The position numbers and the translations under genes are program-made. From Streptococcus oralis (GTDB taxonomy: Bacteria; Bacillota; Bacilli; Lactobacillales; Streptococcaceae): 64,000 nucleotides of DNA. Of this stretch, positions 7,266-47,777 are shown one piece after another. The stretch covers positions 205,001 to 269,000 of the forward strand of contig NZ_CP046524.1 in NCBI RefSeq assembly GCF_021497945.1, written 5' to 3'. The notes beneath the pieces are model-generated. The model ran no database searches and was not told the origin of the DNA. It worked only from the letters and a program-made list of their open reading frames with translations. The first letter of the stretch is position 1, and every line of letters begins with the position of its first letter.

Positions 7266-7274
7266 TGATATAAT
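7266..7274 (+). promoter_or_regulatory. Promoter giving a leaderless mRNA (rsuA-type gene)
   Basis: A perfect extended -10, TGATATAAT, ends 6 nt before the ATG at 7281, so the expected +1 is the A of the start codon. There is no Shine-Dalgarno between promoter and gene. Confidence 0.75.
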
Positions 7275-7280
7275 AGTTCT

Positions 7281-8003
7281 ATGAGATTAGATAAATTTTT
7301 AGTTGCCTGTGCTGTGGGGAGCCGGACAGAGGTCAAAAACTTGCTCAAGGCTGGGCGTGTGATGGTAAATGGCAAGAAAGAAAAGTCAGCTAAATTGCAG
7401 ATCAATGAAGAAAGAGATGAGATCCGCTTTGATGGCCAAGTGCTAGAGTATGAAGAGTTTGTTTACTACATGATGAACAAGCCCCAAGGAGTCATTTCAG
7501 CGACTGAGGATACCAAGCATAGAACGGTTCTAGACTTGTTGGATGATTTAGCTCGGACCAAGGAAGTTTTTCCAGTCGGGCGCTTGGATATCGATACGCA
7601 TGGTCTTCTGCTCTTGACCAATGATGGCCAGCTTGCCCATGCTTTGCTTTCGCCCAAGCGACATGTGGATAAGACTTATCTAGCTCAAGTCAAAGGTATC
7701 ATGACCCAAGAAGACGTGGAGACATTTGCCAAGGGCATTCCGCTCAAGGATTTTACCTGCCAGCCTGCTAGACTGGAGATTATATCGGTAGATACAGAAA
7801 AGAATCAAAGTCTGGTTCGTGTGACCATTGCAGAAGGGAAATTCCACCAGGTCAAACGGATGGTAGCCTACTGTGGTAAGGAAGTGGTGGACCTACAACG
7901 TTTGACGATGGGAACTTTAGCCTTGGACGAGAACTTAGAACGAGGAGAATGGCGTCGCCTGACCAAGGAGGAGTTAGAGGTTCTCCTTGCGAGTATTGCT
8001 TAA
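7281..8003 (+). CDS. rsuA: 16S rRNA pseudouridine synthase, RsuA/RluB family
   Basis: 240-aa pseudouridine synthase with an N-terminal S4 RNA-binding domain (MRLDKFLVACAVGSRTEVKN, residues 1-60) and a catalytic domain with the GRLDIDTHGLLLLTNDG motif, in which D103 is the expected nucleophile. The likely target is U516 of 16S rRNA by family resemblance; RluB-like 23S specificity cannot be excluded. The gene has no ribosome-binding site, and its ATG lies 7 nt from the last base of a TGnTATAAT promoter, indicating leaderless translation. It is a separate transcription unit between two terminators. Confidence 0.88.
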   Translation: MRLDKFLVACAVGSRTEVKNLLKAGRVMVNGKKEKSAKLQINEERDEIRFDGQVLEYEEFVYYMMNKPQGVISATEDTKHRTVLDLLDDLARTKEVFPVGRLDIDTHGLLLLTNDGQLAHALLSPKRHVDKTYLAQVKGIMTQEDVETFAKGIPLKDFTCQPARLEIISVDTEKNQSLVRVTIAEGKFHQVKRMVAYCGKEVVDLQRLTMGTLALDENLERGEWRRLTKEELEVLLASIA

Positions 8004-8018
8004 TTTAATTTATGCTAG

Positions 8019-8048
8019 AAAAGGTGAGGAGAATGTCCCTGCCTTTTT
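8019..8048 (+). terminator. Probable terminator after rsuA
   Basis: aaaaggtgagga and tccctgcctttt form a stem with one mismatch and two wobbles, followed by a T run. Confidence 0.5.
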
Positions 8049-8058
8049 CGTTTTTCAG

Positions 8059-8086
8059 TTGCTTCCTTTGTGAAAAGAGTTATAAT
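8059..8086 (+). promoter_or_regulatory. pepC promoter
   Basis: TTGCTT (8059-8064), a 16-bp spacer and TATAAT (8081-8086). The transcript begins about 20 nt before the AAAGGAGG site of pepC. Confidence 0.7.
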
Positions 8087-8112
8087 AGACAGTAGAATAA
8101 AAGGAGGAATCT

Positions 8113-9447
8113 ATGAACTCGATTCAAGAATCATTTACAGATAAACTATTTGCCAACTATGAAGCAAATGTCAAATACCAAGCAATTGAAAATGCTGCCA
8201 GCCACAATGGAATTTTTGCAGCTCTAGAACGTCGCCAAAGTCATGTAGACAATGCACCTGTTTTCTCATTGGATTTGACCAAGGACAAGGTTACTAACCA
8301 GAAAGCGTCTGGTCGTTGCTGGATGTTTGCAGCTCTCAACACCTTCCGTCACAAACTCATTTCTCAATATAAATTGGAAAACTTTGAATTGTCACAAGCC
8401 CACACTTTCTTCTGGGACAAGTATGAAAAATCTAACTGGTTCTTGGAGCAAGTCATTGCGACTGCAGATCAAGAATTGACGAGCCGTAAGGTTAGCTTCC
8501 TACTCCAAACTCCACAACAAGACGGTGGACAGTGGGATATGGTCGTGGCCCTCTTTGAAAAATATGGTGTCGTTCCTAAGTCAGTTTACCCTGAGTCTGT
8601 TTCATCTAGTAATAGCCGTGAGCTCAATGCAATTCTTAACAAATTGCTTCGCCAAGATGCCCAAATCTTGCGTGACTTGCTCGCTTCTGGTGCTGACCAA
8701 GCGACTGTTCAAGCTAAGAAAGAAGACCTCTTGCAAGAAATCTTTAACTTCCTTGCTATGTCACTAGGTCTTCCACCGCGTAAATTTGACTTTGCTTATC
8801 GCGATAAGGATGATAACTACCAAAGCGAAAAGGGTATCACGCCACAAGAGTTTTACAAGAAATATGTCAATCTTCCTCTAGAAGACTACGTTTCTGTTAT
8901 CAATGCTCCAACTGCTGACAAGCCTTACGGTAAATCTTACACAGTTGAGATGTTGGGAAATGTGGTTGGTAGCCGTGCAGTTCGTTACATCAACGTACCA
9001 ATGGAGCGCTTAAAAGAATTGGCGATTGCCCAAATGCAAACAGGAGAAACTGTTTGGTTTGGTTCAGATGTCGGCCAGCTCAGCAACCGCAAAGCTGGAA
9101 TCCTTGCGACTGATGTTTATGACTTTGAATCAAGCATGGATATTCAACTGACTCAAGACAAGGCTGGACGTTTGGACTACAGCGAAAGTTTGATGACCCA
9201 CGCCATGGTCTTGACAGGTGTGGACTTGGACGAAAATGGCAAGTCAACCAAGTGGAAAGTTGAAAACTCATGGGGAGACAAGGTCGGTGCAGATGGTTAC
9301 TTTGTCGCCTCAGACGCTTGGATGGACGAATACACTTACCAAATCGTTGTCCGTAAAGAATTGCTGACAGCAGAAGAACAAGCTGCCTATGAAGCAGAAC
9401 CAATCGTACTTGCACCATGGGATCCAATGGGAGCCTTGGCAGAATAA
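8113..9447 (+). CDS. pepC: Aminopeptidase C (bleomycin-hydrolase family, C1B)
   Basis: 444-aa cytoplasmic cysteine aminopeptidase that forms a hexameric barrel in its family and trims peptides. The papain-like triad is visible: Gln63 and Cys69 in NQKASGRCWMFAALN, His in SLMTHAMVLTGVD (about 360) and Asn in KVENSWGDKVG (about 381). The C-terminus ending in LAPWDPMGALAE fits the family's self-compartmentalising tail. The start has a near-perfect AAAGGAGG. It is monocistronic, with its own promoter and a terminator at 9459. Confidence 0.96.
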   Translation: MNSIQESFTDKLFANYEANVKYQAIENAASHNGIFAALERRQSHVDNAPVFSLDLTKDKVTNQKASGRCWMFAALNTFRHKLISQYKLENFELSQAHTFFWDKYEKSNWFLEQVIATADQELTSRKVSFLLQTPQQDGGQWDMVVALFEKYGVVPKSVYPESVSSSNSRELNAILNKLLRQDAQILRDLLASGADQATVQAKKEDLLQEIFNFLAMSLGLPPRKFDFAYRDKDDNYQSEKGITPQEFYKKYVNLPLEDYVSVINAPTADKPYGKSYTVEMLGNVVGSRAVRYINVPMERLKELAIAQMQTGETVWFGSDVGQLSNRKAGILATDVYDFESSMDIQLTQDKAGRLDYSESLMTHAMVLTGVDLDENGKSTKWKVENSWGDKVGADGYFVASDAWMDEYTYQIVVRKELLTAEEQAAYEAEPIVLAPWDPMGALAE

Positions 9448-9458
9448 AGCATAAAGAA

Positions 9459-9488
9459 AAGAGGTTAGGGGAATCCTAGCCTCTTTTT
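9459..9488 (+). terminator. pepC terminator
   Basis: aagaggttagg (9459-9469) pairs with cctagcctctt (9475-9485), followed by T residues: an 11-bp stem with one G-U. Confidence 0.85.
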
Positions 9489-9554
9489 AAGTTCTTCTTG
9501 AAGTGGCGATAGGTGATGCTTGCCAAGGGAGTTCTCCTTATTTTGAGTCTTTAA

Positions 9555-9583
9555 GTGACAGAGAAAAAGATATGTGTTACTAT
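9555..9583 (+). promoter_or_regulatory. Promoter of the P-type ATPase gene
   Basis: GTGACA (9555-9560), a 17-bp spacer and an extended -10 TGTTACTAT (9575-9583). The GTG that would give the longest reading frame coincides with this -35 box, which rules it out as the translation start. Confidence 0.75.
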
Positions 9584-9611
9584 AGTAGTACAAAAGGATA
9601 TCGGAGTAGAA

Positions 9612-11840
9612 ATGAAGTATTTAAGCAGTCAAGACATCAAGGATCGTCAACGAAATATCAGCGACATTAAACCCTACAAAACAACCAAGGAAATCGTCGT
9701 TTCAAATATCTTTACCTTCTTTAATGCCATGAACCTGGCTCTGGCAGTTCTGGTAGCCACAACCTTGCGATTTGAGAACATGCTCTTTTTAGGTGTGATT
9801 GCTATCAATACAGCTATCGGGATTTTCCAAGAAGTGCGTTCAAAAAATGCTTTGGAAAAGCTAAGTTTGCTTGGTAAAAGTAAGTACAAGGTCAATCGAG
9901 ATGGTCAAACGATCGAGATTGATCCAGAAGACATCGTTCTGGGGGAATATCTGCATCTCAATCTGGGAGATCAGGTACCTGTCGATGCAGAAGTGCTTGA
10001 AGGAACGATCGAAGTGGATGAGTCCTTGCTGACTGGTGAGAGTGATTCAGTCTTTAAAACAGCAGGTGACAAGCTGATGAGCGGAAGCAATGTCGTTAGC
10101 GGTACTTGTCTGGTCACGGCGACGGCGGTCGGACCCGATAGTTATATCAACAAACTCGCAAAATCCAGCAAGGAATTCAAAAAATACCCTTCTCAACTAC
10201 GCGATTACATGGATAAGATTTTAAAAATCGTCTCGATCTTGCTGGTGCCAGTTGCCATTCTGCTCTATGTCAGAGGTTTTAGTCTAGGACGGTCTTATGT
10301 TGAAATTGTTTTAGGAAGTTCAGGTGCCTTGGTCGGCATGATTCCAGAGGGTTTGATTCTCTTGGTTAGTGTGTCCCTAGCAGTAGCAGCCATGAAGCTG
10401 GCTAAAAAGAAGGTTCTGGTACAGGAGCTATACTGTGTAGAGACCTTGGCGCGAGTAGATATTCTTTGTTTTGATAAGACGGGAACTATCACGACGGGGA
10501 ATATGAAGGTCCAAGAAATGGATGCTAATGTAGCAGAGAAACTATCTTCTTATTTGGCTTATTTCGAAGATGAAAATGCAACTTCCCGAGCTCTGAAGAC
10601 TTACTTAACCTGTGAGAAAAAGTGGGAAGTTCAAGAAGTCGGTGCCTTTTCAAGTAAAAACAAGTATTCCTTTGTCCAAGTAAAAGACAGTGGGACCTAT
10701 TTCTTCGGAGCCTATGAATTTCTAGGCTTTACCCAGCCGATGGATGCCTACTATGAGCATCTGAAACAGCAAGGTTTTCGAATCTTAACACTCGCTCATA
10801 GCAAGGACCAGATTACTAGTCCAGCTAATATGGAACTACTAGGCCACGTCGTTTTGTCAGATGAGATTAAGGACAATACCAAGGAAACCTTTGACTATTT
10901 CGAATCTCAAGGTGTTGAAGTGAAGATTATCAGTGGTGATAATCATGTGGCTGTATATGGGGTGGCTCGTAAGGCAGGTTTTAAGGAAGAAGCGCGGGCT
11001 ATTGATATGACCAAGGTGAGCGATGATGACTTTGAAAGAGTGGTCTTGGAACACGAAATATTTGGACGTGTGACACCTGAACAGAAGCAAAAGATGGTAT
11101 CTATTTTGCAAAATGCTGGTAAAACAGTTGCCATGAGTGGTGATGGAGTCAATGATGTTCTGGCTCTCAAGAAAGCAGATATTAGTTTTGCCATGAAGGG
11201 GGCTACGAGTGCAGCCAAAAGTGTATCCAATATTGTTTTTCTCACAGATGACTTTGCAGTATTTTATGATATCTTGATGGAAGGACGCCGGGTCATTAAC
11301 AACATCCAAAAGGTAGCCTCTCTTTTTCTAACAAAGACCTTCTTCTCCATCGTGTTTGCCATTTTGAGTGTGGTATTTGGTTTGGAATTTGCCTTTATCC
11401 CCATTCAGTTTACAATCATTTCAGCCATTACGATTGGGATTCCATCCTTCTTCCTGACTTTTGAGTCCAATAAAGAAAAGGTTAGCACTCACTTTATGAG
11501 AGATATCCTAACCAACGCGGCGATTGGTGGTGGCGTTCTGGTTGCTAGTGTTCTTTTGACCAATTTCTTTATCACTGTCCCAGGTCAGGTCAAATTTATT
11601 TGCTTCCTCCTTGCCCTGATCAATGGTCTGTGTCTAGTTGCCAAGGTCAGCTTGCCTTTTAATCGATACAAGATGCTTTTGCTCACGTTTTTGAGCCTTG
11701 CAGCCCTTGTTGGTGTACTTGCCAATACTTTTATCCTACAGGGAGCTTTTGTGCCTTTAGAAGCCAAACAGCTACTCTATGTTGCCATACTAGCAGTGGT
11801 GATTGGGTGCTTTCATTATCTTACTAGGAGAAAAAGTTGA
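9612..11840 (+). CDS. P-type cation-transporting ATPase (CtpE-like)
   Basis: 742-aa P-type ATPase (about ten membrane helices), probably exporting a divalent cation. Calcium is favoured by resemblance to CtpE-type pumps, but the substrate is not proven. Motifs in order: actuator TGES (LLTGESDSV, about 140), membrane PEGL (about 240), phosphorylation site CFDKTGT (about 288) and hinge SGDGVNDVLALKKADIS (about 510). The ATG at 9612 is chosen because it has GGAG 5 nt upstream and because the promoter lies over the alternative GTG at 9555. The gene is monocistronic, between the pepC terminator and a convergent terminator shared with manN. Confidence 0.88.
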   Translation: MKYLSSQDIKDRQRNISDIKPYKTTKEIVVSNIFTFFNAMNLALAVLVATTLRFENMLFLGVIAINTAIGIFQEVRSKNALEKLSLLGKSKYKVNRDGQTIEIDPEDIVLGEYLHLNLGDQVPVDAEVLEGTIEVDESLLTGESDSVFKTAGDKLMSGSNVVSGTCLVTATAVGPDSYINKLAKSSKEFKKYPSQLRDYMDKILKIVSILLVPVAILLYVRGFSLGRSYVEIVLGSSGALVGMIPEGLILLVSVSLAVAAMKLAKKKVLVQELYCVETLARVDILCFDKTGTITTGNMKVQEMDANVAEKLSSYLAYFEDENATSRALKTYLTCEKKWEVQEVGAFSSKNKYSFVQVKDSGTYFFGAYEFLGFTQPMDAYYEHLKQQGFRILTLAHSKDQITSPANMELLGHVVLSDEIKDNTKETFDYFESQGVEVKIISGDNHVAVYGVARKAGFKEEARAIDMTKVSDDDFERVVLEHEIFGRVTPEQKQKMVSILQNAGKTVAMSGDGVNDVLALKKADISFAMKGATSAAKSVSNIVFLTDDFAVFYDILMEGRRVINNIQKVASLFLTKTFFSIVFAILSVVFGLEFAFIPIQFTIISAITIGIPSFFLTFESNKEKVSTHFMRDILTNAAIGGGVLVASVLLTNFFITVPGQVKFICFLLALINGLCLVAKVSLPFNRYKMLLLTFLSLAALVGVLANTFILQGAFVPLEAKQLLYVAILAVVIGCFHYLTRRKS

Positions 11841-11845
11841 TACAT

Positions 11846-11878
11846 AAAAAGAATCAGGTTTAATCCTGATTCTTTTTT
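11846..11878. terminator. Shared convergent terminator (ATPase gene / manN)
   Basis: aaaaagaatcagg and cctgattcttttt form a perfect stem with a 6-7 nt loop. T runs on both strands let it end the ATPase transcript rightward and the manLMN transcript leftward. Confidence 0.88.
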
Positions 11879-11899
11879 GTTTATATATTCTCACCGAGA

Positions 11900-12811
11900 T
11901 TACATGATACCGAAGAAACGAGCTGCGATACCAACTGCAAAGAGGGCAAGGATGATTGTGATTGGAGATACTTTTTTCTTAAGCAACCACATGCAAAGGA
12001 AAGTAAGGAGAAGTCCCATCAATCCTGGAATCAATGAGTCCAACTGACCTTGAAGCGTTTGTGGTTGAACTCTATCTAGGCTCATACCACTAAGCGCTTG
12101 ACCAAGAATGCCCTTCAACTCAGCTCCTGTAACAGGACCTTCTGGGAAGTTGATGTAGGCACCTTCTGACAATTGTTTGCCTGGAAGGTTGATAGTGAAG
12201 TTGATGGATACCCAACGTTGTACAAGAACGGCAAGGATGAACATACCAAGGATAGAAGCACCTTTAGTGATGTCTTTCAAGATACCACCAGACATGTCTT
12301 TAGTGATCTCAGATCCAGCTTTGTAACCGAACTCTTGTGTATACCATAGGAAGGCCATACGGATAGCATTCCATCCAAAGAAGAAGAGAAGGGGACCAAC
12401 AATGTTACCAGATGCAGCAAGTGATGCACCAAGGGCTCCAAGGATAGGACGAACTGTAAACCAGAATACTGGGTCACCGATACCAGCAAGAGGTCCCATC
12501 ATACCGATTTTAACCCCTTGGATAGCCGCGTCATCGATTTCTACACCGTTAGCGCGCTCTTCTTCAAGTGCAAGAGTAACCCCCATGATAGGAGCAGCTA
12601 CGTATGGGTGAGTGTTGAAGAACTCAAGGTGACGCTCAAGAGCAGCCGCTTGGTCTTCTTTTTTAGTGTATAATTTTTTGATAGCTGGGATTAATGAGTA
12701 AGCCCAACCCAAGTTTTGCATACGTTCGTAGTTCCAAGAACCTTGAAGGAATTGTGAACGCCACCAAACTTTTTGACGATCTGATTTTGATAATTGAATT
12801 TTTTCAGCCAT
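11900..12811 (-). CDS. manN: PTS mannose/glucose transporter subunit IID
   Basis: 303-aa IID component of a mannose-family phosphotransferase system. With ManM it forms the membrane channel importing mannose, glucose and other hexoses. Family landmarks are the N-terminal WWRSQFLQGSWNYERMQNLG, central MGPLAGIGDPVFWFTVRPILGA, and hydrophobic segments at the C-terminus. RBS AAAGGGG precedes the ATG. It is the third gene of manL-manM-manN, 14 nt after manM. Mannose-PTS IIC/IID pairs are also receptors of class IIa bacteriocins, as known for the family. Confidence 0.96.
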   Translation of the reverse strand: MAEKIQLSKSDRQKVWWRSQFLQGSWNYERMQNLGWAYSLIPAIKKLYTKKEDQAAALERHLEFFNTHPYVAAPIMGVTLALEEERANGVEIDDAAIQGVKIGMMGPLAGIGDPVFWFTVRPILGALGASLAASGNIVGPLLFFFGWNAIRMAFLWYTQEFGYKAGSEITKDMSGGILKDITKGASILGMFILAVLVQRWVSINFTINLPGKQLSEGAYINFPEGPVTGAELKGILGQALSGMSLDRVQPQTLQGQLDSLIPGLMGLLLTFLCMWLLKKKVSPITIILALFAVGIAARFFGIM

Positions 12812-12825
12812 GATTGTTCCCCTTT

Positions 12826-13638
12826 CTAGTAGTCTTCTAGGATATCACCGATTGGGTCGTTAGAAGTCGCAGCTCCGCCGCCACCGTTTCCACCTTGTTT
12901 TGTAAGGTTAAGGTAGATGAAGGCAAGGGCAACACCGATGACACCAAGGGCAATCAAAGTCAATTGAGAGATAGCTGCAAGAGCAAAACCGATAGCGAAG
13001 AATGGCCATACTTCACGAGTTGCCATCATGTTGATAACCATAGCGTAACCAACGGCAACGACCATAGCACCACCAACAGCCATACCACCATTCAACCATT
13101 CTGGCATCAATTTAAGAGCATCTTGAACGGCAGAAGCTGGGATAGCGATAAGGAAGGCTGCAGGGATTGCAATACGAAGACCTTGAAGAAGAAGTGCGAT
13201 AAAGTGAGCACGTTCAACAGCTGCAATATTTCCTTCTTTAGCGGCAGCATCTGCAGTGTGAACCAAACCAACTGAGATTGTACGAACAATCATAGTCAAG
13301 AAAAGTCCAGCTACGGCAAGAGGGATAGCTGTTGCTGTTGCAACGGCGATACCTTCAGTAGTAAAGTTACCACCTTTGATCAAGATGATTGCTGCGGCAA
13401 CAGATGCAAGAGCAGCATCAGGAGCTACGGCAGCTCCGATGTTTGCCCAACCAAGGGCGATCATTTGAAGAGATCCACCAAGCATAACACCTGCTTCGAG
13501 GTTACCAGTTGCAAGTCCGATAAGGGTACATGCGACGATTGGTTGATGGAATTGGAATTGGTCGAGGATACCTTCAAGACCTGCAAGGAAGGCAACAACT
13601 ACAACCAAGATAGCAGAAATGATTGAAATATCTGACAT
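12826..13638 (-). CDS. manM: PTS mannose/glucose transporter subunit IIC
   Basis: 270-aa polytopic IIC component forming the sugar channel with ManN. It is rich in hydrophobic helices, and the stretch FLAGLEGILDQFQFHQPIVACTLIGL near the N-terminus is typical of the family. The C-terminus has a glycine run (GGNGGGGAA) and an acidic tail. RBS AAAAGGA precedes the ATG. It lies between manL and manN in one operon controlled by the promoter with a cre-like site at 14771. Confidence 0.96.
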   Translation of the reverse strand: MSDISIISAILVVVVAFLAGLEGILDQFQFHQPIVACTLIGLATGNLEAGVMLGGSLQMIALGWANIGAAVAPDAALASVAAAIILIKGGNFTTEGIAVATATAIPLAVAGLFLTMIVRTISVGLVHTADAAAKEGNIAAVERAHFIALLLQGLRIAIPAAFLIAIPASAVQDALKLMPEWLNGGMAVGGAMVVAVGYAMVINMMATREVWPFFAIGFALAAISQLTLIALGVIGVALAFIYLNLTKQGGNGGGGAATSNDPIGDILEDY

Positions 13639-13715
13639 GGTTTTATTCCTTTTCTATTTAAGTATAATAAAGTGTAAAATCTTTCTTCTAAGAGTTCGAG
13701 AGAAGAAGATTCTAA

Positions 13716-14705
13716 TTATTGAACGTTCGCTTTGTTAATCAAGTCAAACAAATCTTTTTTCGTGTCGTTTGGTACTTTACGTACGTCAAATTCAACACCG
13801 AGGTCACGCATTTTTTCAAATGTTGCAACATCATCTTTGTCCATAGACAAAACGTTGTTAATCATTGTTTTACCTGTTGAGTGAGCCATGGAACCAACGT
13901 TAAGAGTCTTGATTGGTACGCCGCCTTCGATTGCACGAAGTGCATCTTGTGGAGTTTCAAACAAGATAAGGGCATGAGTGTCACCGAAACGTGGGTCTTT
14001 TGCAACGTCGATCAATTTTTGGATTGGAACAACGTTGGCTTTTACTCCGTTTGGAGCTGCTTGTTTGATCAATTCTTTACGCAAGTCGTCGTTTGCGACG
14101 TTGTCTGAAGCAACGATGATACGATCTGCTTTTGAATCTGGAGTCCAAGCAGTGGCAACCTGACCGTGAAGGAGACGAGTGTCTAGACGAGCAAGGTTGA
14201 TTTTCAGTTTACCGTCGCCGATAACTGTTCCTTCTGGAATAGCAGCTTGGGCAACTGGAGCAGCTGCAGCACTTGCAACTTCCTCAACTGGGTTAAGCTC
14301 TTCTGGAAGAGCTTTGATGCCATCTTTGGCTTCTTTAATGATATTCGCAGCGACTTTATCCACACCTGCATTCGCGTCCATCAGGCGCTCTGTGTAGGCT
14401 TGGATCAACATCGGTAAGTTCAGTCCTGTGATGATGGCAAACTTGCGCTCAGGATTTTCTCCCATCACGCGACTAGCTTGGTTGAATGGAGATCCACTCC
14501 AAAGGTCAGCCAATACTAGCACCTCATCTTCTGCGTCAAATGCAGCCACAGCGTTGTTGAATTTAGCGTAAAGATCATCTGGACCTTCGTTTGGCATAAA
14601 GGTTACAACTTGAACCTTTTCTTGTTCACCAAAGATCATAGATCCGGACTGATGAATACCCGCAGCAAATTCGCCGTGGCTTGCAATAATGATTCCGATA
14701 CTCAT
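13716..14705 (-). CDS. manL: PTS mannose/glucose transporter subunit IIAB
   Basis: 329-aa soluble fusion of the IIA and IIB phosphoryl-transfer domains. The IIA domain starts [14 protein letters not shown], with His10 as the phosphorylation site. An Ala/Pro-rich linker around residues 140-155 leads to IIB, whose phosphorylated His is in [17 protein letters not shown]. The start at 14705 is preferred over the ATG at 14714 because the AAAGGAGG then sits about 10 nt upstream, and 329 aa matches pneumococcal ManL. It takes phosphate from HPr and passes it to the incoming sugar. First gene of the operon. Confidence 0.96.
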
Positions 14706-14770
14706 TATTGTCATTCCTCCTTTAAAATGTTTGACTCTTAGTTTTTAAGAAAACTTTAAGACTACCATTA

Positions 14771-14799
14771 AGTATAAACCGTTTTCAAACAAAAAGCAA
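14771..14799 (-). promoter_or_regulatory. manLMN promoter with embedded CcpA cre site
   Basis: On the minus strand TTGCTT (14799-14794), a 17-bp spacer and TATACT (14776-14771) form a good promoter. The spacer and -10 contain TGAAAACGGTTTAT (14787-14774), which matches 12 of 14 positions of the cre consensus TGWAANCGNTNWCA. CcpA bound here would occlude RNA polymerase, though activation has been reported for some man operons, so direction is an inference. Confidence 0.75.
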
Positions 14800-14952
14800 C
14801 CATTTCTTATAAATATGTGTTGGTTTTCGATGAAAACTCGCTTACAAAATGTTAATATATAAATACTTTTGTAGGAATGTATAAAAAGATAAGGGAGTAA
14901 TTTAATATAAAAAAATGAAAACAGGTCGGTTAGTTGAAAAATTGTGAAAATT

Positions 14953-14978: not shown

Positions 14979-14983
14979 GAGTG

Positions 14984-39186: not shown

Positions 39187-39197
39187 GAGATAGAACT

Positions 39198-39229: not shown

Positions 39230-39252
39230 GCAAACAGAATAGAAGGAAGCTT

Positions 39253-40509: not shown

Positions 40510-40527
40510 AAGAAATTGAAAATGAAA

Positions 40528-40579
40528 GTGAAAAACAGATTGCTTTCTAAAAAATAGACAAAAAAACCTTGTTTTTCAC
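40528..40579. repeat. 10-bp inverted repeat around the pflA -35
   Basis: gtgaaaaaca (40528-40537) and tgtttttcac (40570-40579) are perfect inverted copies separated by 32 nt. The right arm covers the pflA -35 hexamer TTGTTT. It could be a dyad operator or a weak terminator for lysA. Confidence 0.5.
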
Positions 40580-40616
40580 CTTACTCGTGATATAATAAAA
40601 CTATAAAACGGTTTCA
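40569..40616 (+). promoter_or_regulatory. pflA promoter with cre-like site at +1
   Basis: TTGTTT (40569-40574), a 16-bp spacer, TGATATAAT (40588-40596). ATAAAACGGTTTCA (40603-40616) matches 12 of 14 cre positions and lies on the expected transcription start, where CcpA would block elongation or initiation. Confidence 0.65.
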
Positions 40617-40630
40617 AGGAAGGTGACGAT

Positions 40631-41425
40631 ATGTCTGAAGAAACAATTGACTATGGACAAGTGACAGGAATGGTGCATTCGACAGAGAGTTTTGGGGCGG
40701 TAGATGGTCCTGGGATTCGTTTTATTGTCTTTTTGCAGGGTTGTCACATGCGTTGCCAGTACTGCCATAACCCAGACACATGGGCTATGGAGACCAATAA
40801 ATCACGCGAACGGACAGTAGATGATGTCTTGACAGAAGCCCTTCGTTATCGTGGTTTCTGGGGAGACAAGGGAGGAATCACTGTCAGTGGTGGAGAGGCT
40901 CTCTTACAGATTGATTTCTTGATTGCCCTCTTTACCAAGGCCAAGGAAAAAGGGATCCACTGTACCTTGGACACCTGTGCCCTTCCTTTCCGTAATACAC
41001 CACGTTATCTCGAAAAGTTTAATAAACTCATGGCGGTGACAGACTTAGTTCTCTTGGATATCAAGGAAATCAACGAAGAACAGCACAAGATCGTTACTAG
41101 CCAAACCAATAAAAACATCTTGGCCTGTGCCCGGTACCTATCAGATATTGGAAAACCTGTTTGGATTCGCCACGTATTGGTTCCAGGATTGACAGATAGA
41201 GATGACGACTTGATCGAACTCGGTAAATTCGTCAAAACCCTCAAAAACGTTGACAAGTTTGAAATCCTACCTTATCACACTATGGGAGAATTCAAGTGGC
41301 GTGAACTAGGAATTCCTTATTCGCTCGAAGGAGTCAAACCTCCCACAGCAGACCGTGTGAAGAATGCCAAGGAATTGATGGATACAGAAAGCTACCAAGA
41401 CTACATGAAACGTGTTCATGGATAA
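40631..41425 (+). CDS. pflA: Pyruvate formate-lyase activating enzyme
   Basis: 264-aa radical SAM enzyme that installs the glycyl radical on pyruvate formate-lyase under anaerobic conditions. The [4Fe-4S]-binding CxxxCxxC is CHMRCQYC (Cys38, 42, 45). GGITVSGGEALLQ and VWIRHVLVPGLTD are further family motifs. The glycyl-radical enzyme itself is not in the window. RBS AAGGAAGG precedes the ATG. The cre-like site links it to sugar supply. Confidence 0.96.
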   Translation: MSEETIDYGQVTGMVHSTESFGAVDGPGIRFIVFLQGCHMRCQYCHNPDTWAMETNKSRERTVDDVLTEALRYRGFWGDKGGITVSGGEALLQIDFLIALFTKAKEKGIHCTLDTCALPFRNTPRYLEKFNKLMAVTDLVLLDIKEINEEQHKIVTSQTNKNILACARYLSDIGKPVWIRHVLVPGLTDRDDDLIELGKFVKTLKNVDKFEILPYHTMGEFKWRELGIPYSLEGVKPPTADRVKNAKELMDTESYQDYMKRVHG

Positions 41426-41455
41426 AAAGGAGCCTGATGGAAACATCGGGCTTTT
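41424..41455 (+). terminator. pflA terminator
   Basis: agcctgatg-gaaa-catcgggct with flanking A and T runs; starts at the stop codon. Confidence 0.75.
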
Positions 41456-41462
41456 GTGATGC

Positions 41463-41492
41463 AAAAAGACTTAGCCTTTCAGCTAAGCCTTT
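41463..41492 (-). terminator. yidC terminator (minus strand)
   Basis: aaaaagacttagcc and agctaagccttttg form a stem of about 10 bp with one wobble just beyond the minus-strand stop. Confidence 0.75.
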
Positions 41493-41498
41493 TGAGTC

Positions 41499-42428
41499 TT
41501 ATCTAGATCGTTGTTTGCCAGAGTTGCGGTTTTTCTTTTTCTTATTGGTTGTGATACCCTGAGGCTGTTTAGGAGTCACATCTTTTCTTGCACCTGCAGA
41601 AGGGCTGACTTTCGGAGGGTTCTTTTCGTATTCTTCACGTACTTTTTGACGAAGTTTTGGACGAACGACATAGTTGACGATAAATTGTTGGAGAATCATC
41701 ATGAAACCACCGACAACCCAGTAAAGTGTCACACTGGCTGGTGAGAAGAGGGAGAAGATAACAATCATGAGTGGGCTCATGTAGATCATTTTCTTAAGTT
41801 GTTCTCTTTGCATCTCATCTTCTACTCCATGAAGCGAGAGGAGAGATTGGATATAGTAAAGAATACCTGCAAAGGCTACGAGAAGCATGCTTGGTGAGCC
41901 AAGATCAATTCCCAAGAAGTTAGAACCAGCAACTCCTTCAGTGTGTTGGGCAGCAAAGAAGATAGCAGAGAAGAAAGGCATTTGGAGCAAGATAGGGAAA
42001 CATCCGACGCCTCCTAGCATGCTGATACCATGTTCTTTTTGGGCGGCAAAGAGAGCTTGTTGAGCCTCAAGTTTTTCTTCTTGAGTTGTTGCCTCTTTGA
42101 GACGTGTTTGATGTGGTTCAAGCACGTGTTTGAGGGCGTTCATCTTTTCAGAGTGAAGCGTCGCCTTCCACGATTGGTAGATACCGAGTGGCAAGATAAT
42201 CAAACGCACGATAATGGTTACGATGATAATCCCCATTCCAAAACCAAGTCCCATATCATTGGCAAAGTATTTGATGGCCTCTGCCATAGGCGCTCCGATG
42301 GTGTTCCAGATAAATCCAGTCGGTTCTCCAGTTGTTTTATCAACAGAAACACAGCCTGTCAAGATAAGTAGCATAGCCACTCCCATAGCTGAGAGGGCAA
42401 AACGTTTAATAGATTTCAATGTTTTCAT
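41499..42428 (-). CDS. yidC: Membrane protein insertase YidC/Oxa1 family (lipoprotein)
   Basis: 309-aa insertase. A signal peptide ends in the lipobox LILTGC (Cys about 26), so it is a lipid-anchored precursor. Five membrane segments of the Oxa1 core follow, with LPLGIYQSWKATLHSEKM and GCFPILLQMPFFSAIFFAA typical of the family. The C-terminal tail is strongly basic (KKKKNRNSGKQRSR), as in YidC proteins that bind ribosomes. The annotated ATG sits very close to its GAAGGA; a TTG nine bases downstream is an alternative start. Streptococci usually carry two YidC paralogues; this is one. Confidence 0.94.
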   Translation of the reverse strand: MKTLKSIKRFALSAMGVAMLLILTGCVSVDKTTGEPTGFIWNTIGAPMAEAIKYFANDMGLGFGMGIIIVTIIVRLIILPLGIYQSWKATLHSEKMNALKHVLEPHQTRLKEATTQEEKLEAQQALFAAQKEHGISMLGGVGCFPILLQMPFFSAIFFAAQHTEGVAGSNFLGIDLGSPSMLLVAFAGILYYIQSLLSLHGVEDEMQREQLKKMIYMSPLMIVIFSLFSPASVTLYWVVGGFMMILQQFIVNYVVRPKLRQKVREEYEKNPPKVSPSAGARKDVTPKQPQGITTNKKKKNRNSGKQRSR

Positions 42429-42496
42429 TCCTTCTTTAAAAATTATACCTTTCTATTCTACTGTTTTTTTGTAAAATATACAATAGTTCTGGAGAC

Positions 42497-42775
42497 CTAA
42501 TTTGCGACTTTGAAGTCCGAATAGGATGAAAAGTTGCTCATCTGCACATCTAGATAGGTAACTTTTGAAAAAGGCGTTGGACCTTTACGGATTTCTTGGA
42601 TAAATTTTGCCATAGTGGCAGAGGACTCTGCCTGAGCAAGAATTTCCACTGTGCCATCGTCATTATTCCAGACACGACCAGTGATGCCACCGATTTCAAG
42701 CGCTAGAGTATAAACGCCCCAGCGAAAACCAACACCCTGTACTCTGCCTTGGGCAATCATTCTAACCTTTTGCAT
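42497..42775 (-). CDS. acyP: Acylphosphatase
   Basis: 92-aa small enzyme hydrolysing carboxyl-phosphate bonds. The signature is GRVQGVGFRWGVYTLAL (catalytic Arg in GFRW) followed by GRVWNNDDGTVEILAQ with the catalytic Asn. It starts divergent to the rRNA methyltransferase gene; the two start codons are only 33 nt apart. RBS AGGGG is 6 nt from the ATG. Confidence 0.94.
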   Translation of the reverse strand: MQKVRMIAQGRVQGVGFRWGVYTLALEIGGITGRVWNNDDGTVEILAQAESSATMAKFIQEIRKGPTPFSKVTYLDVQMSNFSSYSDFKVAN

Positions 42776-42793
42776 ACTAAACCCCTTTGATTG

Positions 42794-42802
42794 TGTTATA
42801 AT
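42794..42802 (+). promoter_or_regulatory. Promoter giving a leaderless mRNA (TrmH-family gene)
   Basis: TGTTATAAT ends 6 nt before the ATG at 42809. No Shine-Dalgarno can fit in this interval. Confidence 0.75.
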
Positions 42803-42808
42803 GTTTCT

Positions 42809-43549
42809 ATGACTATTATAACCTCAAAAGCCAATTCTGTGGTAAAAAATGCCAAGAAATTGCATCAAAAAAAATATCGAAAGTCTGCCTATTTGATTGA
42901 AGGTTGGCACTTGTTTGAAGAAGCTGTTCAAGCAGGAGTGACGATTGAGAAGATTTTTGCCTTAGAAAGTTATCGAGATCAGTTAGCTGCTTTTCCTCAA
43001 ACTGTCTGGGTTTCAGAGGAGATTTTGCGGGACTTAGCAGATACGCAAACCCCTCAAGGCATTGTCGCAGTTATTCAAAAAGAAGAAATGGGACAGCCTG
43101 ATCTTCGTCAGGGCAAGTTTCTATTTTTAGAAGATGTTCAAGATCCTGGTAATGTAGGTACCATGATTCGGACGGCGGATGCTGCAGGTTTTACAGGGGT
43201 CATTGTTTCAGACAAGTCAGCAGATATCTACAGTCTCAAGACCCTGCGTTCCATGCAAGGCAGTCATTTTCACTTGCCCATCTATCGTATGCCTCTTGCC
43301 ACCTTTGTAGAAGGGGCTAAAAAGAGTGACTTGCCCATTCTGGCAACGACCTTATCGAGAGATTCAAAGGATTATCGTGAGCTTTCTCCTCTAGAAAACT
43401 TTGCTTTAGTTATGGGAAATGAAGGACAGGGAATTAGTCCTGTCATGGTTGAGAGTGCTGATCAGCTGGTTCATATAGGCATGAAAGGCCGAGCAGAAAG
43501 TCTCAACGTGGCAGTTGCCGCAGGTATATTGATGTTTTATTTCAGCTAA
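42809..43549 (+). CDS. TrmH/SpoU-family RNA 2'-O-methyltransferase
   Basis: 246-aa SPOUT methyltransferase, probably acting on 23S rRNA (RlmB-like) though the exact nucleotide is unknown. An N-terminal substrate-binding domain (TIITSKANSVVKNAKKLHQKKYR, LIEGWHLFEEAVQAG) precedes the knotted SAM domain with motifs EDVQDPGNVGTMIRTADAAG, VMGNEGQGISP and AESLNVAVAAGILMF. The start at 42809 is chosen since the -10 box of its promoter overlaps the longer frame at 42791. It appears leaderless. Confidence 0.88.
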   Translation: MTIITSKANSVVKNAKKLHQKKYRKSAYLIEGWHLFEEAVQAGVTIEKIFALESYRDQLAAFPQTVWVSEEILRDLADTQTPQGIVAVIQKEEMGQPDLRQGKFLFLEDVQDPGNVGTMIRTADAAGFTGVIVSDKSADIYSLKTLRSMQGSHFHLPIYRMPLATFVEGAKKSDLPILATTLSRDSKDYRELSPLENFALVMGNEGQGISPVMVESADQLVHIGMKGRAESLNVAVAAGILMFYFS

Positions 43550-43603
43550 TTTATAAAATCTTTGTTATAATCAAGACATATTTATAGAAAAAGGAGAATC
43601 GGA

Positions 43604-44287
43604 ATGAATCAAACAATTATTCAAGAACGTTCAGGTCTCAATCAATTTTACGCTAAGGTTTACGCCTTTGTGGGACTTGGGATTGGTCTGTCAGCTCTCG
43701 TGTCAGCTTTGATGTTGACGGTCTTTCAGACTCAATTGGTCTACTTTTTAATGCATGGCCGTCTCTGGTTGATGATTGCAACTTTTGCAGAACTTGGTCT
43801 GGTCTTTGTTGCAAGTAGCATGGCTGCTAAAAATAGCCCAGCAGCTCTGCCAGTATTTCTAGTATACTCCCTACTGAATGGCTTCACACTTAGCTTTGTC
43901 GTAGCTTTCTATACGCCGGGAACAGTTTTGTCAGCCTTTGTATCCAGTGCCCTACTCTTCTTTGTCATGGCGGCAATCGGGATTTTCACCAAGAAAGATT
44001 TGAGTGGAATGGGCCGAGCTCTGATGGCGGCGCTTGTTGGCCTCATCATTGCCATGATTGTGAATATTTTCTTAGCTAGTGGTTTCTTTGACTACATGAT
44101 TAGTATTGCCATGGTCTTGGTCTTCTCTGGTTTGATTGCTTGGGATAACCAAAAGATTCGCTATGTTTATGAGCAGTCACAAGGACAAGTAGCGACAGGC
44201 TGGGTCATTTCAATGGCACTCAGCATTTACCTAGACTTTATCAACCTCTTCCTTAGCATCTTGCGCATCTTTGGTCGAAACGATTAA
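43604..44287 (+). CDS. Bax inhibitor-1/YccA family membrane protein
   Basis: 227-aa protein with seven hydrophobic helices, beginning NQTIIQERSGLNQFYAKVYAF and ending AWDNQKIRYVYEQSQG, LSIYLDFINLFLSILRIFG, the typical BI-1/YccA end with the LDFINLF signature. Members leak calcium or modulate membrane proteases; the streptococcal role is not defined. RBS AAAAGGAG; a TGTTATAAT extended -10 lies near 43564-43572. Terminator at 44298. Confidence 0.9.
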   Translation: MNQTIIQERSGLNQFYAKVYAFVGLGIGLSALVSALMLTVFQTQLVYFLMHGRLWLMIATFAELGLVFVASSMAAKNSPAALPVFLVYSLLNGFTLSFVVAFYTPGTVLSAFVSSALLFFVMAAIGIFTKKDLSGMGRALMAALVGLIIAMIVNIFLASGFFDYMISIAMVLVFSGLIAWDNQKIRYVYEQSQGQVATGWVISMALSIYLDFINLFLSILRIFGRND

Positions 44288-44297
44288 AGAATTATAG

Positions 44298-44328
44298 AGT
44301 CAGTGTTCGAAAGTGCGCTGACTTTTTC
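44298..44328 (+). terminator. Terminator after YccA-family gene
   Basis: agtcag and ctgact close a hairpin with an inner short stem, followed by TTTTT. Confidence 0.7.
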
Positions 44329-44341
44329 TTATTTGCCCTTT

Positions 44342-44367
44342 TCTTTTCTGAAAAATAGGAGTATAAT
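44342..44367 (+). promoter_or_regulatory. asnA promoter with CodY-like box
   Basis: TATAAT at 44362-44367. Just upstream, tcttttctgaaaaat (44342-44356) matches 12 of 15 positions of the CodY box AATTTTCWGAAAATT and would lie between -35 and -10. Support is moderate only. Confidence 0.4.
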
Positions 44368-44395
44368 GCTAGTAATTATGTTTTTAGGAGTATTT

Positions 44396-45388
44396 ATGAA
44401 GAAAAGTTTTATTCATCAGCAAGAAGAAATTTCTTTTGTTAAAAACACCTTTACCCAGTATTTGAAAGATAAACTAGAAGTCGTTGAAGTTCAGGGACCT
44501 ATCTTGAGTAAGGTCGGCGATGGGATGCAAGACAACCTTTCAGGTGTTGAAAATCCAGTATCGGTGAAGGTCTTGCAAATTCCAGATGAAACCTACGAAG
44601 TCGTTCATTCACTTGCTAAATGGAAACGCCACACCTTGGCTCGTTTTGGTTTCGGTGATGGGGAAGGTTTGTTTGTCCACATGAAGGCTCTTCGCCCAGA
44701 TGAAGATTCGCTAGATGCGACCCACTCTGTTTATGTAGACCAGTGGGACTGGGAAAAAGTGATTCCAAATGGAAAACGTAATATCGCTTATCTTAAAGAA
44801 ACAGTTGAAAAGATTTACAAGGCTATTCGTCTGACAGAGCTAGCCGTAGAAGCCCGCTATGATATCGAATCAATCTTGCCAAAACAAATCACCTTTATCC
44901 ATACAGAAGAGTTGGTGGAACGTTACCCAGACTTGACACCAAAAGAGCGTGAAAATGCGATCTGTAAAGAGTTCGGTGCGGTCTTCTTGATTGGTATTGG
45001 TGGAGAGTTACCAGATGGAAAACCGCATGATGGCCGTGCGCCTGACTACGATGACTGGACCACAGAGTCTGAGAATGGCTACAAGGGATTGAATGGGGAT
45101 ATCCTGGTTTGGAATGAATCTCTTGGTTGTGCCTTTGAACTCTCCTCAATGGGGATTCGGGTAGATGAGGATACACTTCGTCGCCAAGTTGCCCTTACAG
45201 GAGACGAAGATCGTCTGGAGTTGGAATGGCATAAGGCTCTGCTTAACGGCCTTTTCCCACTGACAATCGGTGGGGGTATCGGACAGTCTCGGATGGCCAT
45301 GTTCTTACTTCGCAAGAAACACATTGGAGAAGTTCAGACCAGTGTCTGGCCTCAAGAAGTCCGCGATACTTACGAAAATATCTTGTAG
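44396..45388 (+). CDS. asnA: Aspartate-ammonia ligase (asparagine synthetase A)
   Basis: 330-aa AMP-forming, ammonia-dependent asparagine synthetase, structurally related to class II aminoacyl-tRNA synthetases. Landmarks are [45 protein letters not shown], and the motif-3-like [17 protein letters not shown]. The length equals the usual 330. The ATG at 44396 follows TAGGAG by 6 nt; the frame extends upstream over the promoter and terminator, which excludes earlier starts. It opposes the asparaginase at 23570 functionally. Confidence 0.96.
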
Positions 45389-45390
45389 AG

Positions 45391-45420
45391 AATCGAACCG
45401 CAAGGTTCGGTTTTCTTTCT
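45391..45420 (+). terminator. asnA terminator
   Basis: cgaacc-gcaa-ggttcg, with a stable GNRA-like loop and trailing T-rich stretch. Confidence 0.85.
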
Positions 45421-45436
45421 CTTTTTGCCTATAATT

Positions 45437-45445
45437 TGGTATAAT
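45437..45445 (+). promoter_or_regulatory. Promoter giving a leaderless mRNA (rsmD)
   Basis: TGGTATAAT ends 7 nt before the ATG at 45453, so the transcript should have no or only one leader base. Confidence 0.72.
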
Positions 45446-45452
45446 AAACGGT

Positions 45453-45992
45453 ATGAAAATCGTATCAGGAATCTACGGAGGGCGTCCTCTCAAGACGTTA
45501 GAAGGAAAGACGACGAGGCCGACATCGGATAAGGTGCGTGGAGCTATCTTTAACATGATAGGTCCTTATTTTGATGGTGGTCGTGTATTGGATCTCTATG
45601 CTGGCAGTGGTGGCTTATCTATTGAGGCAGTATCACGTGGTATGTCCTATGCTGTCCTAGTGGAACGGGATAGAAGAGCCCAAGCTATCATCGCTGAAAA
45701 TATCCAAATGACCAAGGAAGTTTCCAAATTTCAGCTCTTAAAGATGGAGGCTGAACGGGCCTTGGAGCAAGTGAAAGGTCCCTTTGACCTGGTCTTTTTA
45801 GACCCTCCCTATGCCAAGGAACAAATCGTTGCAGATATCGAAAAAATGGCAGAAAGAAACCTTTTCTCCGAAGAGGTCATGGTTGTCTGTGAAACCGATA
45901 AGTCTGTAGAACTACCAGAAGAAATCGCCTGCTTAGGTATCTGGAAGGAAAAAATATATGGGATTAGTAAGGTGACGGTCTATGTCAGATAA
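45453..45992 (+). CDS. rsmD: 16S rRNA (guanine(966)-N2)-methyltransferase RsmD
   Basis: 179-aa SAM-dependent enzyme. It starts [19 protein letters not shown], contains [16 protein letters not shown], the SAM-binding [15 protein letters not shown] and the catalytic DPPY in [12 protein letters not shown]. It methylates G966-equivalent of 16S rRNA. The transcript seems leaderless. The next gene, coaD, overlaps it by 11 nt, followed by sepM, forming an operon. Confidence 0.95.
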
Positions 45993-46470
45993 AATTGGAT
46001 TATTTACAGGTTCATTTGATCCTATGACAAATGGACATCTGGATATCATTGAACGTGCCAGCAAACTCTTTGATAAGCTCTATGTCGGGGTTTTCTACAA
46101 CCTCCACAAACAAGGTTTTCTCCCTGTTGAAAATCGCAAACGAGCAGTTGAAAAAGCTGTGGCGCATTTAGGTAATGTAGAGGTGTTGGCCTCTCATGAC
46201 CAACTAGTCGTCGATGTTGCAAGAAGACTGGGGGCTAAAACCCTTGTCCGTGGCTTGCGGAATGCCACAGACTTGCAATACGAGTCTAGTTTTGATTACT
46301 ACAATCATCAACTGGCTCCAGAAATCGAAACCATTTACCTATATAGTCGCCCAGAGCACCTCTATATTAGCTCTTCAGCCATGAGAGAACTTCTGAAGTT
46401 TGGTCAGGAGATTCAGCAATATGTACCAAACAGTGTTGTGGAGGAATTAGAACATGAAGAAAAAAACTAG
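45982..46470 (+). CDS. coaD: Phosphopantetheine adenylyltransferase
   Basis: 162-aa nucleotidyltransferase of coenzyme A synthesis, converting 4'-phosphopantetheine and ATP to dephospho-CoA. The T/HxGH-type motif is [17 protein letters not shown], and the second signature is [15 protein letters not shown]. Overlaps rsmD by 11 nt and sepM by 17 nt. The rsmD-coaD pairing is common in Firmicutes. Confidence 0.97.
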
Positions 46471-47491
46471 ATGGCCCTTATATGTCATCCTAGCACTAGT
46501 AGTGACTTTTTTAGCTTTTGTAGTGCCTTTACCCTACTACATAGAAGTTCCAGGTGGAGCGGAAGATATTCGTCAAGTTTTGAAAGTCAATGAAACAGAG
46601 GATACAGAAGCAGGAGCTTACCAGTTTGTAACAGTCGGTATTCGGCACGCAACTCTGTCGCATCTTGTCTATGCTTGGTTAACACCTTTCACGGATATTA
46701 GAAGCGCTAAGGAGACTACGGGTGGTTCTACGGATGCGGAGTTTATGCGGATCAATCAGTTCTACATGCAAACATCCCAAAATATGGCCAAGTATCAAGG
46801 CTTGAAGACGGCTGGCAAGGATATCGAGCTCAAGTATCTGGGAGTCTATGTCTTGACCGTGACGGACAATTCAACTTTTAAGGGCATTCTGAACATTGCA
46901 GACACAGTGACGGCTGTTAATGATAAGACATTTGACAGTTCCAAAGACTTGGTTGACTATGTCAACTCTCAAAAACTAGGAGATCCAGTCAAGGTAACCT
47001 ACGAAGAAGACGGAAGAATCAAGACTGCTGAAGGTAAAATTATCACTCTCGAAAACGGGAAAAACGGGATTGGGATTGGTTTGATTGACCGTACGGAAGT
47101 GACCAGTGATGTTCCGATTCGCTTTTCAACAGCTGGTATCGGGGGTCCAAGTGCAGGTCTCATGTTTAGCCTAGCTATCTACACCCAGATAGCAGATCCA
47201 GGTCTTCGTAATGGTCGTATCGTTGCAGGAACAGGAACCATTGATCGCGATGGAAATGTTGGCGATATTGGTGGAATTGACAAAAAAGTAGTTGCAGCCT
47301 CTCGTCAGGGAGCCAACATCTTTTTTGCTCCTGACAATCCAGTTACCGAGGAAGCAAAAAAAGCAGATCCCAATGCGAAAAGCAACTATGAAACAGCCCT
47401 AGAAGCTGCTAAAACGATCAAAACAGAGATGAAAATCGTTCCTGTTAAGACTTTGCAGGATGCAATTGATTACCTTAAAAACAATCCCTAA
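46454..47491 (+). CDS. sepM: SepM-like membrane PDZ/Lon-type serine protease
   Basis: 345-aa membrane-anchored protease facing outside. One N-terminal helix ([18 protein letters not shown]) is followed by a PDZ domain (about 125-200, [18 protein letters not shown]...[11 protein letters not shown]) and a Lon-type protease domain with the Ser-Lys dyad: catalytic Ser in [14 protein letters not shown] and Lys in [16 protein letters not shown]. In S. mutans SepM trims the competence-stimulating peptide; whether it does so here is inference. It overlaps coaD by 17 nt. Confidence 0.9.
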
Positions 47492-47531
47492 TTTGTAGAA
47501 AAATTGAAAACTAGCGCGCAAGCGGATAAGA

Positions 47532-47540
47532 TGGTATAAT
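47532..47540 (+). promoter_or_regulatory. Promoter giving a leaderless mRNA (DUF1146 gene)
   Basis: TGGTATAAT ends 6 nt before the ATG at 47547, the same geometry as at 7281 and 42809. Confidence 0.75.
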
Positions 47541-47546
47541 AGTCAA

Positions 47547-47777
47547 ATGGTTCAATTATTATTCACTCTAAGTAGTCATATACTCTTTATTTATTTGAGT
47601 TTTTACCTTTTAAAAGATCTTGTAAGATGGGAAAAGGTTTTAAAAGTAACTGCTACTAACACAAAAAAAGTTCGTTTATTGGTAGGCTTCTTTAGTATTG
47701 TGATGGGCTATATCTTGAGTTCATTCTTTATCAGTTTGTACCAACTGTGGCAAGAAGCACTTAGAGGACTATTATAA
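47547..47777 (+). CDS. DUF1146 / YwzB-like small membrane protein
   Basis: 76-aa protein with two membrane helices (about 1-22 and 48-70) separated by a basic stretch ([17 protein letters not shown]). It resembles the YwzB/DUF1146 family commonly next to murA, and sits 23 nt before murA here. There is no ribosome-binding site; it appears leaderless. No function is established that I know of. Confidence 0.75.

Follow-up and report, generated by a model that had tools for sequence, protein, structure and literature searches.

The stretch of DNA analysed here, 64,000 nucleotides (nt) of Streptococcus oralis (contig NZ_CP046524.1, positions 205,001 to 269,000; hereafter the window), contains four genes whose start codon lies just downstream of an extended -10 promoter element, an arrangement that we refer to as leaderless geometry. 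The distance from TGnTATAAT to the ATG, namely 6, 6, 7 and 6 nt at positions 7281, 42809, 45453 and 47547, respectively, had been described in a sequence-only reading of the window and is borne out by rereading of the sequences, the start codon being ATG at all four sites. On the plus strand, the extended -10 TGATATAAT (7266..7274, with TG at 7266-7267 and TATAAT at 7269-7274) precedes a gene for an RsuA-type rRNA pseudouridine synthase (7281..8003, TIGR00093), and TGTTATAAT (42794..42802, TATAAT at 42797-42802) precedes a SpoU/TrmH-type RNA methyltransferase gene (42809..43549, PF00588). On the same strand, TGGTATAAT is found both at 45437..45445 (TATAAT at 45440-45445), upstream of rsmD, the gene of the 16S rRNA (guanine966-N2)-methyltransferase (45453..45992, TIGR00095), and at 47532..47540 (TATAAT at 47535-47540), upstream of the gene for a small DUF1146 (YwzB-like) protein (47547..47777, above the cut-off of TIGR02327). 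The usual distance between a -10 element and +1 would make the transcript of three genes begin with the A of their ATG and that of rsmD with the immediately preceding base, the transcription start site (TSS) predicted for the rsuA-type gene being position 7281. The absence of a Shine-Dalgarno motif ahead of the four ATGs, expected from the same reading, was confirmed by a motif check, complemented for rsmD by a reading of the window sequence and a check of near-identical relatives. Judged from this geometry, leaderless mRNAs are very probable for all four genes, which would make them members of a known streptococcal class. The genes rsmA, rsgA, rnmV and trmL had been described as lacking this arrangement, and their upstream sequences agree, the start of the trmL-like SpoU-domain gene being uncertain.

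The assignment of three of the four genes to RNA-modifying families is likewise supported by NCBIfam and Pfam, the fourth being DUF1146. RsmD reaches 171.5 bits against TIGR00095, for a curated cut-off of 117.5. The product of the gene at 7281 exceeds the cut-off of the subfamily TIGR00093 (175.6 vs 109.3 bits) and misses that of NF008097, the equivalog for RsuA proper (16S psi516), with 196.6 vs 275 bits; the target site of this RsuA-type enzyme is not fixed by the family scores. The product of the gene at 42809 passes for both the SpoU domain (PF00588) and the MRM3-like substrate-binding domain (PF22435), and its substrate is not fixed either, since its score against the RlmB family TIGR00186 lies under the cut-off (114.8 vs 160.15 bits).

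The whole genome of the organism was scanned for this geometry (1.944 Mb, one contig). The pattern TGNTATAATN{5,7}ATG gave 42 matches, compared with 1 for the reversed pattern, a count that rules out a chance origin of the four window sites. An open reading frame (ORF) of at least 60 amino acids (aa) is opened by 27 of the 42 matches, the other 15 opening ORFs of fewer than 30 aa, and the window holds 4 of the 25 genes with a spacing of 6 or 7 nt, where 0.8 would be expected (post-hoc Poisson). The relaxed pattern TGNTAVAATN{6,7}ATG provided 38 further matches (vs 6 controls), 16 of which were judged to be real gene starts; TATAAT without the TG, at a spacing of 6-7 nt, provided 56 (90 less 34 with TG), of which 3 were intragenic and unscored and 53 were scored, with 7 gene starts among them. 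The total of leaderless-geometry genes in the genome is therefore 50 (27 + 16 + 7). ORFs shorter than 60 aa account for the 15 rows dropped from the 42 of the first set and for 58 of the 89 relaxed-set rows, plus two more short ones, and eight relaxed matches were dropped as internal to longer frames (L293, L295, L303, L372, L321, L351, L363, L367). Two doubtful genes were kept: L339, and L024, a RelQ-like gene with a spacing of 5 whose real start probably lies further downstream. All 27 TGNTATAAT genes were scanned with NCBIfam, those without a match being identified through Pfam (L003, PF06161) or named by eye (L019, L022). Among the other 23, 19 were scanned (L296, L302, L314 and L349 had no match at the E-value used), and the remaining four (L328, L333, L339 and L366) carry a name given by eye or no name; overall, 40 of the 50 genes have a family match and 10 were named by eye or are unnamed.

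The share of RNA-modification enzymes in this gene set was compared with that in a control set of leadered genes. The control set has the same perfect extended -10, followed by a leader and a GGA-type Shine-Dalgarno motif (90 matches vs 1 control match); 8 of 89 were dropped as shorter than 60 aa, and the 81 controls retained were named from a Pfam scan of 40 proteins (33 with a match; two below 60 aa) and by eye for the remainder. RNA-modification enzymes make up 12 of the 50 leaderless-geometry genes and 1 of the 81 leadered controls (Fisher P 3.5e-5). The twelve are RsuA-type, SpoU-like, RsmD, RlmI-like, U32/TrhP-like, MnmL/YtqA, RlmB, TsaE, RluA-family, RsmC-like, TruA and RlmH, and the sole RNA modifier of the control set is MiaA (by eye). 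Four of them, RlmI-like, RsmC-like, U32/TrhP-like and SpoU-like, score under the curated cut-offs that NCBIfam sets for these names, and counting only members above such a cut-off gives 8/50 vs 1/81 (P 0.002). The enrichment persists without the four window genes (9/46 vs 1/81, P 4.5e-4), as well as without these and the seven window controls (9/46 vs 1/74, P 7e-4). The TGNTAVAAT set alone, which had played no part in the sequence-only reading, contains 4 RNA modifiers among 16 genes (vs 1/81, P 0.002), and the 7 gene starts of the set with TATAAT and without TG contain none.

At the evolutionary level, the geometry is well conserved for three of the four genes within the genus. The comparison for rsmD covered the best 80 of 513 confirmed Streptococcus loci, many of them close relatives, and 78 of these 80 have a spacing of exactly 7 nt between the extended TATAAT and the ATG, the exceptions being one locus with a Shine-Dalgarno motif and one with a 10-nt spacing. 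The SpoU-like gene has the geometry in 8/8 genus genomes, and 22 of the 29 other family loci with an assignable start were flagged as leaderless (21 without the distant paralogue L189). For DUF1146, the geometry is likewise present in 8/8 genus genomes, and a Shine-Dalgarno-like motif is found outside the genus in all five alignable loci, 3 of 16 loci being unalignable. A sample of 60 genomes drawn across the order (9 of the genus and 51 of other families) was searched with TGNTATAATN{6,7}ATG, which gave 23-42 matches in the genus genomes (mean 35, control 1.9) and 1-15 in the other families (mean 6.4, control 4.3); among the genomes drawn, only those of this genus show the geometry frequently.

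The functional bias was replicated in a distant congener, G016, in which TGNTAHAATN{6,7}ATG has 64 matches vs 5 controls. All 64 were examined, and RNA modifiers represent 12 of 39 plausible gene starts, compared with 0 of 28 leadered controls sampled (P 8e-4). Two matches had been dropped, L423 because of a long open frame upstream and L465 because it looks internal to pgk (40 reduced to 39), and the controls come from the first 30 of the 84 matches in positional order (28 used), all named by eye; rsuA of G016 is leadered and falls outside these 30. The RNA modifiers of G016 that are absent from the sets of the own genome include RlmCD, RsmG and a methyltransferase (L427) that we take to be TrmN6-like, Pfam showing only methyltransferase domains. 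In g7, a second genus of the same family (genome G013), the pattern has 122 matches vs 6 controls, about twice the 64 of G016, and 57 of the 122 were examined, with one ORF dropped (L377). The 46 gene starts obtained show a broad functional spread, and enrichment is unclear when they are set against the own-genome control (3/46, P 0.13). One g7 gene with leaderless geometry is RimM-like by eye (L490). Genes of G016 and g7 were named by BLAST to the own-genome set or by eye, except L425, L427, L463, L380, L399, L473 and L441. The expectation that a genome scan would reveal an enrichment for RNA modifiers is therefore upheld in the own genome and, within the genus, in one distant species, and is left unclear in the second genus; as far as tested, the bias appears to belong to the genus Streptococcus.

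Leaderless-geometry genes also differ from the leadered controls in codon usage and in their upstream spacing. Codon adaptation is lower (mean 0.53-0.55 vs 0.60, P 2e-4), and RNA modifiers and other leaderless genes are alike in this respect (P 0.28). The reference of the codon adaptation index (CAI) consisted of five makeshift control genes (pgk, pfkA, upp, leuS and that of a malic enzyme, the sole one with a Pfam-based name), which were excluded from the comparison and left 76 controls, so this control is rough. When labels were permuted within codon-adaptation strata, the enrichment in RNA modifiers had a P of 0.0005 (0.004 without the window genes), the single CAI tertiles being marginal (P 0.11, 0.04 and 0.14); low expression was thus rejected as the whole cause of the enrichment, the signal being weakened and not removed by the strata. 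The upstream gap has a median of 86 nt for leaderless and 140 nt for leadered loci (31 and 29 loci, P 0.002). A divergent upstream neighbour, considered as a cause, was rejected with 14/31 leaderless vs 11/29 leadered loci (P 0.6; long-flank loci, mechanical ORFs).

The surroundings of the window promoters were inspected for signals that bear on read-through. A terminator-like hairpin with a short T tail lies just 5' of the rsuA promoter (7227..7260, plus strand; minimum free energy (MFE) -20.4 kcal/mol, z -4.06) and would be expected to reduce read-through from the preceding gene, which ends at 7208. A second one, with a T-rich tail, lies 5' of the rsmD promoter (45387..45416, plus strand; MFE -20.2, z -4.24), and the SpoU-like gene is preceded at 33 bp by a divergent acylphosphatase gene (42497..42775, minus strand, PF00708); three of the four promoters are in this way preceded by a terminator-like hairpin or a divergent gene. 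A TATAAT on the minus strand (42815..42820), inside codons 3-4 (ATT ATA) of the SpoU-like gene, is a possible -10 of the acylphosphatase gene. It is kept in 8/8 genus loci, in all of which the acylphosphatase gene is divergent. Given one TATAAT before the ATG on the plus strand and another in codons 3-4 on the minus strand, both transcripts could start near the same base pair, and the two genes may have a common minimal back-to-back promoter (window 42775-42820). At rsmD, two TATAAT hexamers lie 10 bp apart. The upstream one (45430-45435) lacks the TG and is present in several mitis-group loci; the TG and the conserved 7-nt spacing are found only at the downstream one.

Close divergent pairs of genes with leaderless geometry were observed elsewhere in the genome: an RluA-family gene and a class A penicillin-binding protein (PBP) gene (G000:C1:194661-194752, L291/L292), a pair that recurs in G016 (G016:C1:1880492-1880680, L468/L469), DUF3397 and MnmL (634144-634255, L299/L011), and a YqgQ-like gene (by eye) and a LysR gene (1391933-1392049, L314/L315). 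The class A PBP gene with leaderless geometry in the own genome (L292) is presumably, by gene order, the pbp2A orthologue. The tiny ORFs behind 15 of the 42 matches, all below 30 aa, include some of 1-3 codons (e.g. L015, L023, L034, L014, L016), and in four cases (L023, L025, L034, L037) the -10 is common with a leadered-control match just downstream. One leadered control (L104, G000:C1 near 1355740) has a frame that stops after 24 codons and resembles by eye the programmed frameshift of RF2.

We propose that RNA polymerase carrying the housekeeping sigma factor would start at the extended -10, +1 being the A of the ATG (for rsmD, the preceding base), and that the ribosome would initiate at the AUG at the 5' end with no Shine-Dalgarno interaction. 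It can be hypothesised that the genus uses this class as a compact, constitutive and low-output mode of expression for low-copy housekeeping enzymes, many of them involved in nucleic-acid or envelope upkeep. Enzymes modifying rRNA and tRNA are strongly over-represented in the class, and a low steady dosage may be the reason for their membership. The leaderless geometry itself is supported by the sequence, by the genome-wide statistics and by its conservation, and published TSS maps support the class as a whole. Considered in its entirety, the reading of a known leaderless class that provides low-output expression, with RNA modifiers over-represented, seems to us to be probable. It is the most economical one, and it fits RuvB, UvrC, LigA, HemW, RibF and MurT, which belong to the class in the own genome. 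Several observations nevertheless weigh against it. The geometry of rsuA is labile, being leaderless in 2/8 genus genomes and in 6/22 other loci (some of them paralogues), the remaining genus genomes having a Shine-Dalgarno motif in three cases and neither signal in three; a response regulator and a regulator of the LysR type are also members of the class. The hairpin scan found no terminator-like hairpin 5' of the DUF1146 gene, so a longer read-through transcript is possible there. Only 3 of the 46 gene starts of g7 encode RNA modifiers (KsgA, an RsuA-family enzyme and QueH), and the persistence of the enrichment across CAI strata implies that low expression, as estimated from codons, is not a full explanation.

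This last point would be accommodated by a regulatory coupling, a generalisation of the idea in the sequence-only reading that leaderless synthesis is tied to the state of ribosome assembly: free 70S ribosomes, or undermodified subunits and tRNAs, would favour leaderless over leadered mRNAs, and RNA modifiers would be made on need. The enrichment beyond codon adaptation in two species of the genus, the strictly conserved rsmD geometry, the RimM-like ribosome-maturation gene of g7 and the 70S route and stress effects published for Escherichia coli (cited in PMC6431027) are all consistent with it. However, the enriched set mixes 16S, 23S and tRNA modifiers, the last being 4 of the 12 (MnmL, TruA, TsaE and U32/TrhP-like), low codon adaptation is class-wide, and most leaderless genes are unrelated (MurT, RibF, UvrC, PlsY, MATE). 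No assembly GTPase or Rim factor was recognised among the 50 own-genome genes, of which 40 were family-matched and 10 named by eye or unnamed. Genes of ribosome-assembly factors often lie inside operons. In addition, the geometry of rsuA is swapped for a Shine-Dalgarno motif in 3/8 genus genomes and gone in 3 more, the second genus has no clear enrichment, and a leaderless pbp2A reporter was indifferent to an added ribosome-binding site (RBS) (PMC6212727). The tie to ribosome assembly as originally worded is not supported, and we regard the coupling as improbable. It is with correspondingly little confidence that leaderless initiation in Streptococcus can be pictured as a loose regulon, made up of the twelve enzymes listed above with RlmCD and RsmG in the relative, whose output would follow the pool of 70S or undermodified ribosomes. 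If this were true, such a regulon would provide feedback from the state of the translation machinery to RNA modification, with no dedicated regulator.

Two other explanations concern the origin and the reality of the geometry. It may have been inherited from the streptococcal ancestor, the bias reflecting the set of genes that stood alone as transcription units at the origin of the class; the geometry would then persist because the addition of a leader needs a simultaneous new RBS. The strictly kept spacing of rsmD and the conserved geometry of the SpoU-like gene agree with such a frozen state, as does the distance-dependent exchange between the two signals, the leaderless -10 and the Shine-Dalgarno motif, described in silico for genomes that include the Streptococcaceae (PMC3160421). 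Against it, rsuA demonstrates signal exchange within the genus, and the further RNA modifiers of G016 suggest that membership turns over while the functional bias stays; we therefore consider this ancestry unlikely as the explanation. The -10-like elements could, finally, be coincidental or minor promoters, with translation from longer transcripts that start upstream. The second TATAAT upstream of rsmD, the possible read-through into the DUF1146 gene and the 15 of 42 matches that open merely tiny ORFs could be read in this sense, and are opposed by the 42 matches vs 1 control, the conserved spacing, the lack of a Shine-Dalgarno motif before the four ATGs and the hairpin or divergent gene at three of the four promoters; this explanation appears highly improbable. 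The low-output leaderless class is consequently the interpretation that we retain. Since the bias occurs in two distant species and goes beyond a rough codon control, it provides a defined and testable gene set for the idea of a leaderless regulatory channel; if it merely corresponds to low-dose housekeeping expression, it still indicates the purpose that leaderless genes serve in this genus.

The E. coli precedent comprises a 70S route for leaderless mRNAs together with effects of stress (as cited in PMC6431027). Such 70S initiation is a possible mechanism for a 5'-terminal AUG, and a role governed by stress or by ribosome state would be hypothetical for the streptococcal genes. In E. coli, leaderless initiation is also carried out by MazF-made ribosomes. 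In bacteria, enzymes that modify rRNA and tRNA generally fall under COG category J (translation). Within Lactobacillales, an in silico survey assigned leaderless genes to two clades, Lactococcus-Streptococcus and Oenococcus-Leuconostoc, and, as at the window genes, found TATAAT just 5' of the start codon, accompanied in several low-GC genomes by a TG peak (PMC3160421). Its COG analysis over all genomes with leaderless genes places category A (RNA processing and modification), which contains few prokaryotic genes, high and J low (PMC3160421); because it pools genomes, and with A high and J low, an enrichment of streptococcal RNA modifiers is not shown by that analysis. Enterococci have less than 1% leaderless mRNAs, with no functional enrichment (PMC7724050). 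Lactococcus cremoris, of the same family as S. oralis and of another genus, has about 13% leaderless mRNAs and bimodal leader lengths with a leaderless mode (PMC10986495).

The closest counterparts are found within the genus itself. In S. pneumoniae D39, 9% of operons are leaderless, 70 starting exactly on the coding sequence, and the addition of an RBS to the leaderless pbp2A promoter reporter was without effect (PMC6212727). Leaderless transcripts account for 8.6% of the mRNAs of S. pyogenes, 54 of them common to S. agalactiae and 39 of these also to S. pneumoniae (PMC6431027), and S. agalactiae has 8%, all with AUG (PMC4448216). A bias towards RNA modifiers is unstated in the texts on S. 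pneumoniae (PMC6212727) and S. pyogenes (PMC6431027) by term search, and a literature search found no report of such an enrichment among streptococcal leaderless genes, the nearest finding being the COG result of PMC3160421 and the supplementary gene tables lying outside the coverage of both; the bias, which is supported in two species by these sequence comparisons, thus appears to be unreported in the published work covered. The leaderless mRNAs of S. pneumoniae, S. pyogenes and S. agalactiae, at an operon share of 8-9%, resemble the window genes in genus and as AUG-start transcripts, and differ from them in that their TSSs were mapped experimentally, whereas the window genes are known from their sequence geometry. 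Leaderless mRNAs are hence documented for the streptococci, and what the present comparison adds is a functional bias towards RNA-modification enzymes, supported in two species.

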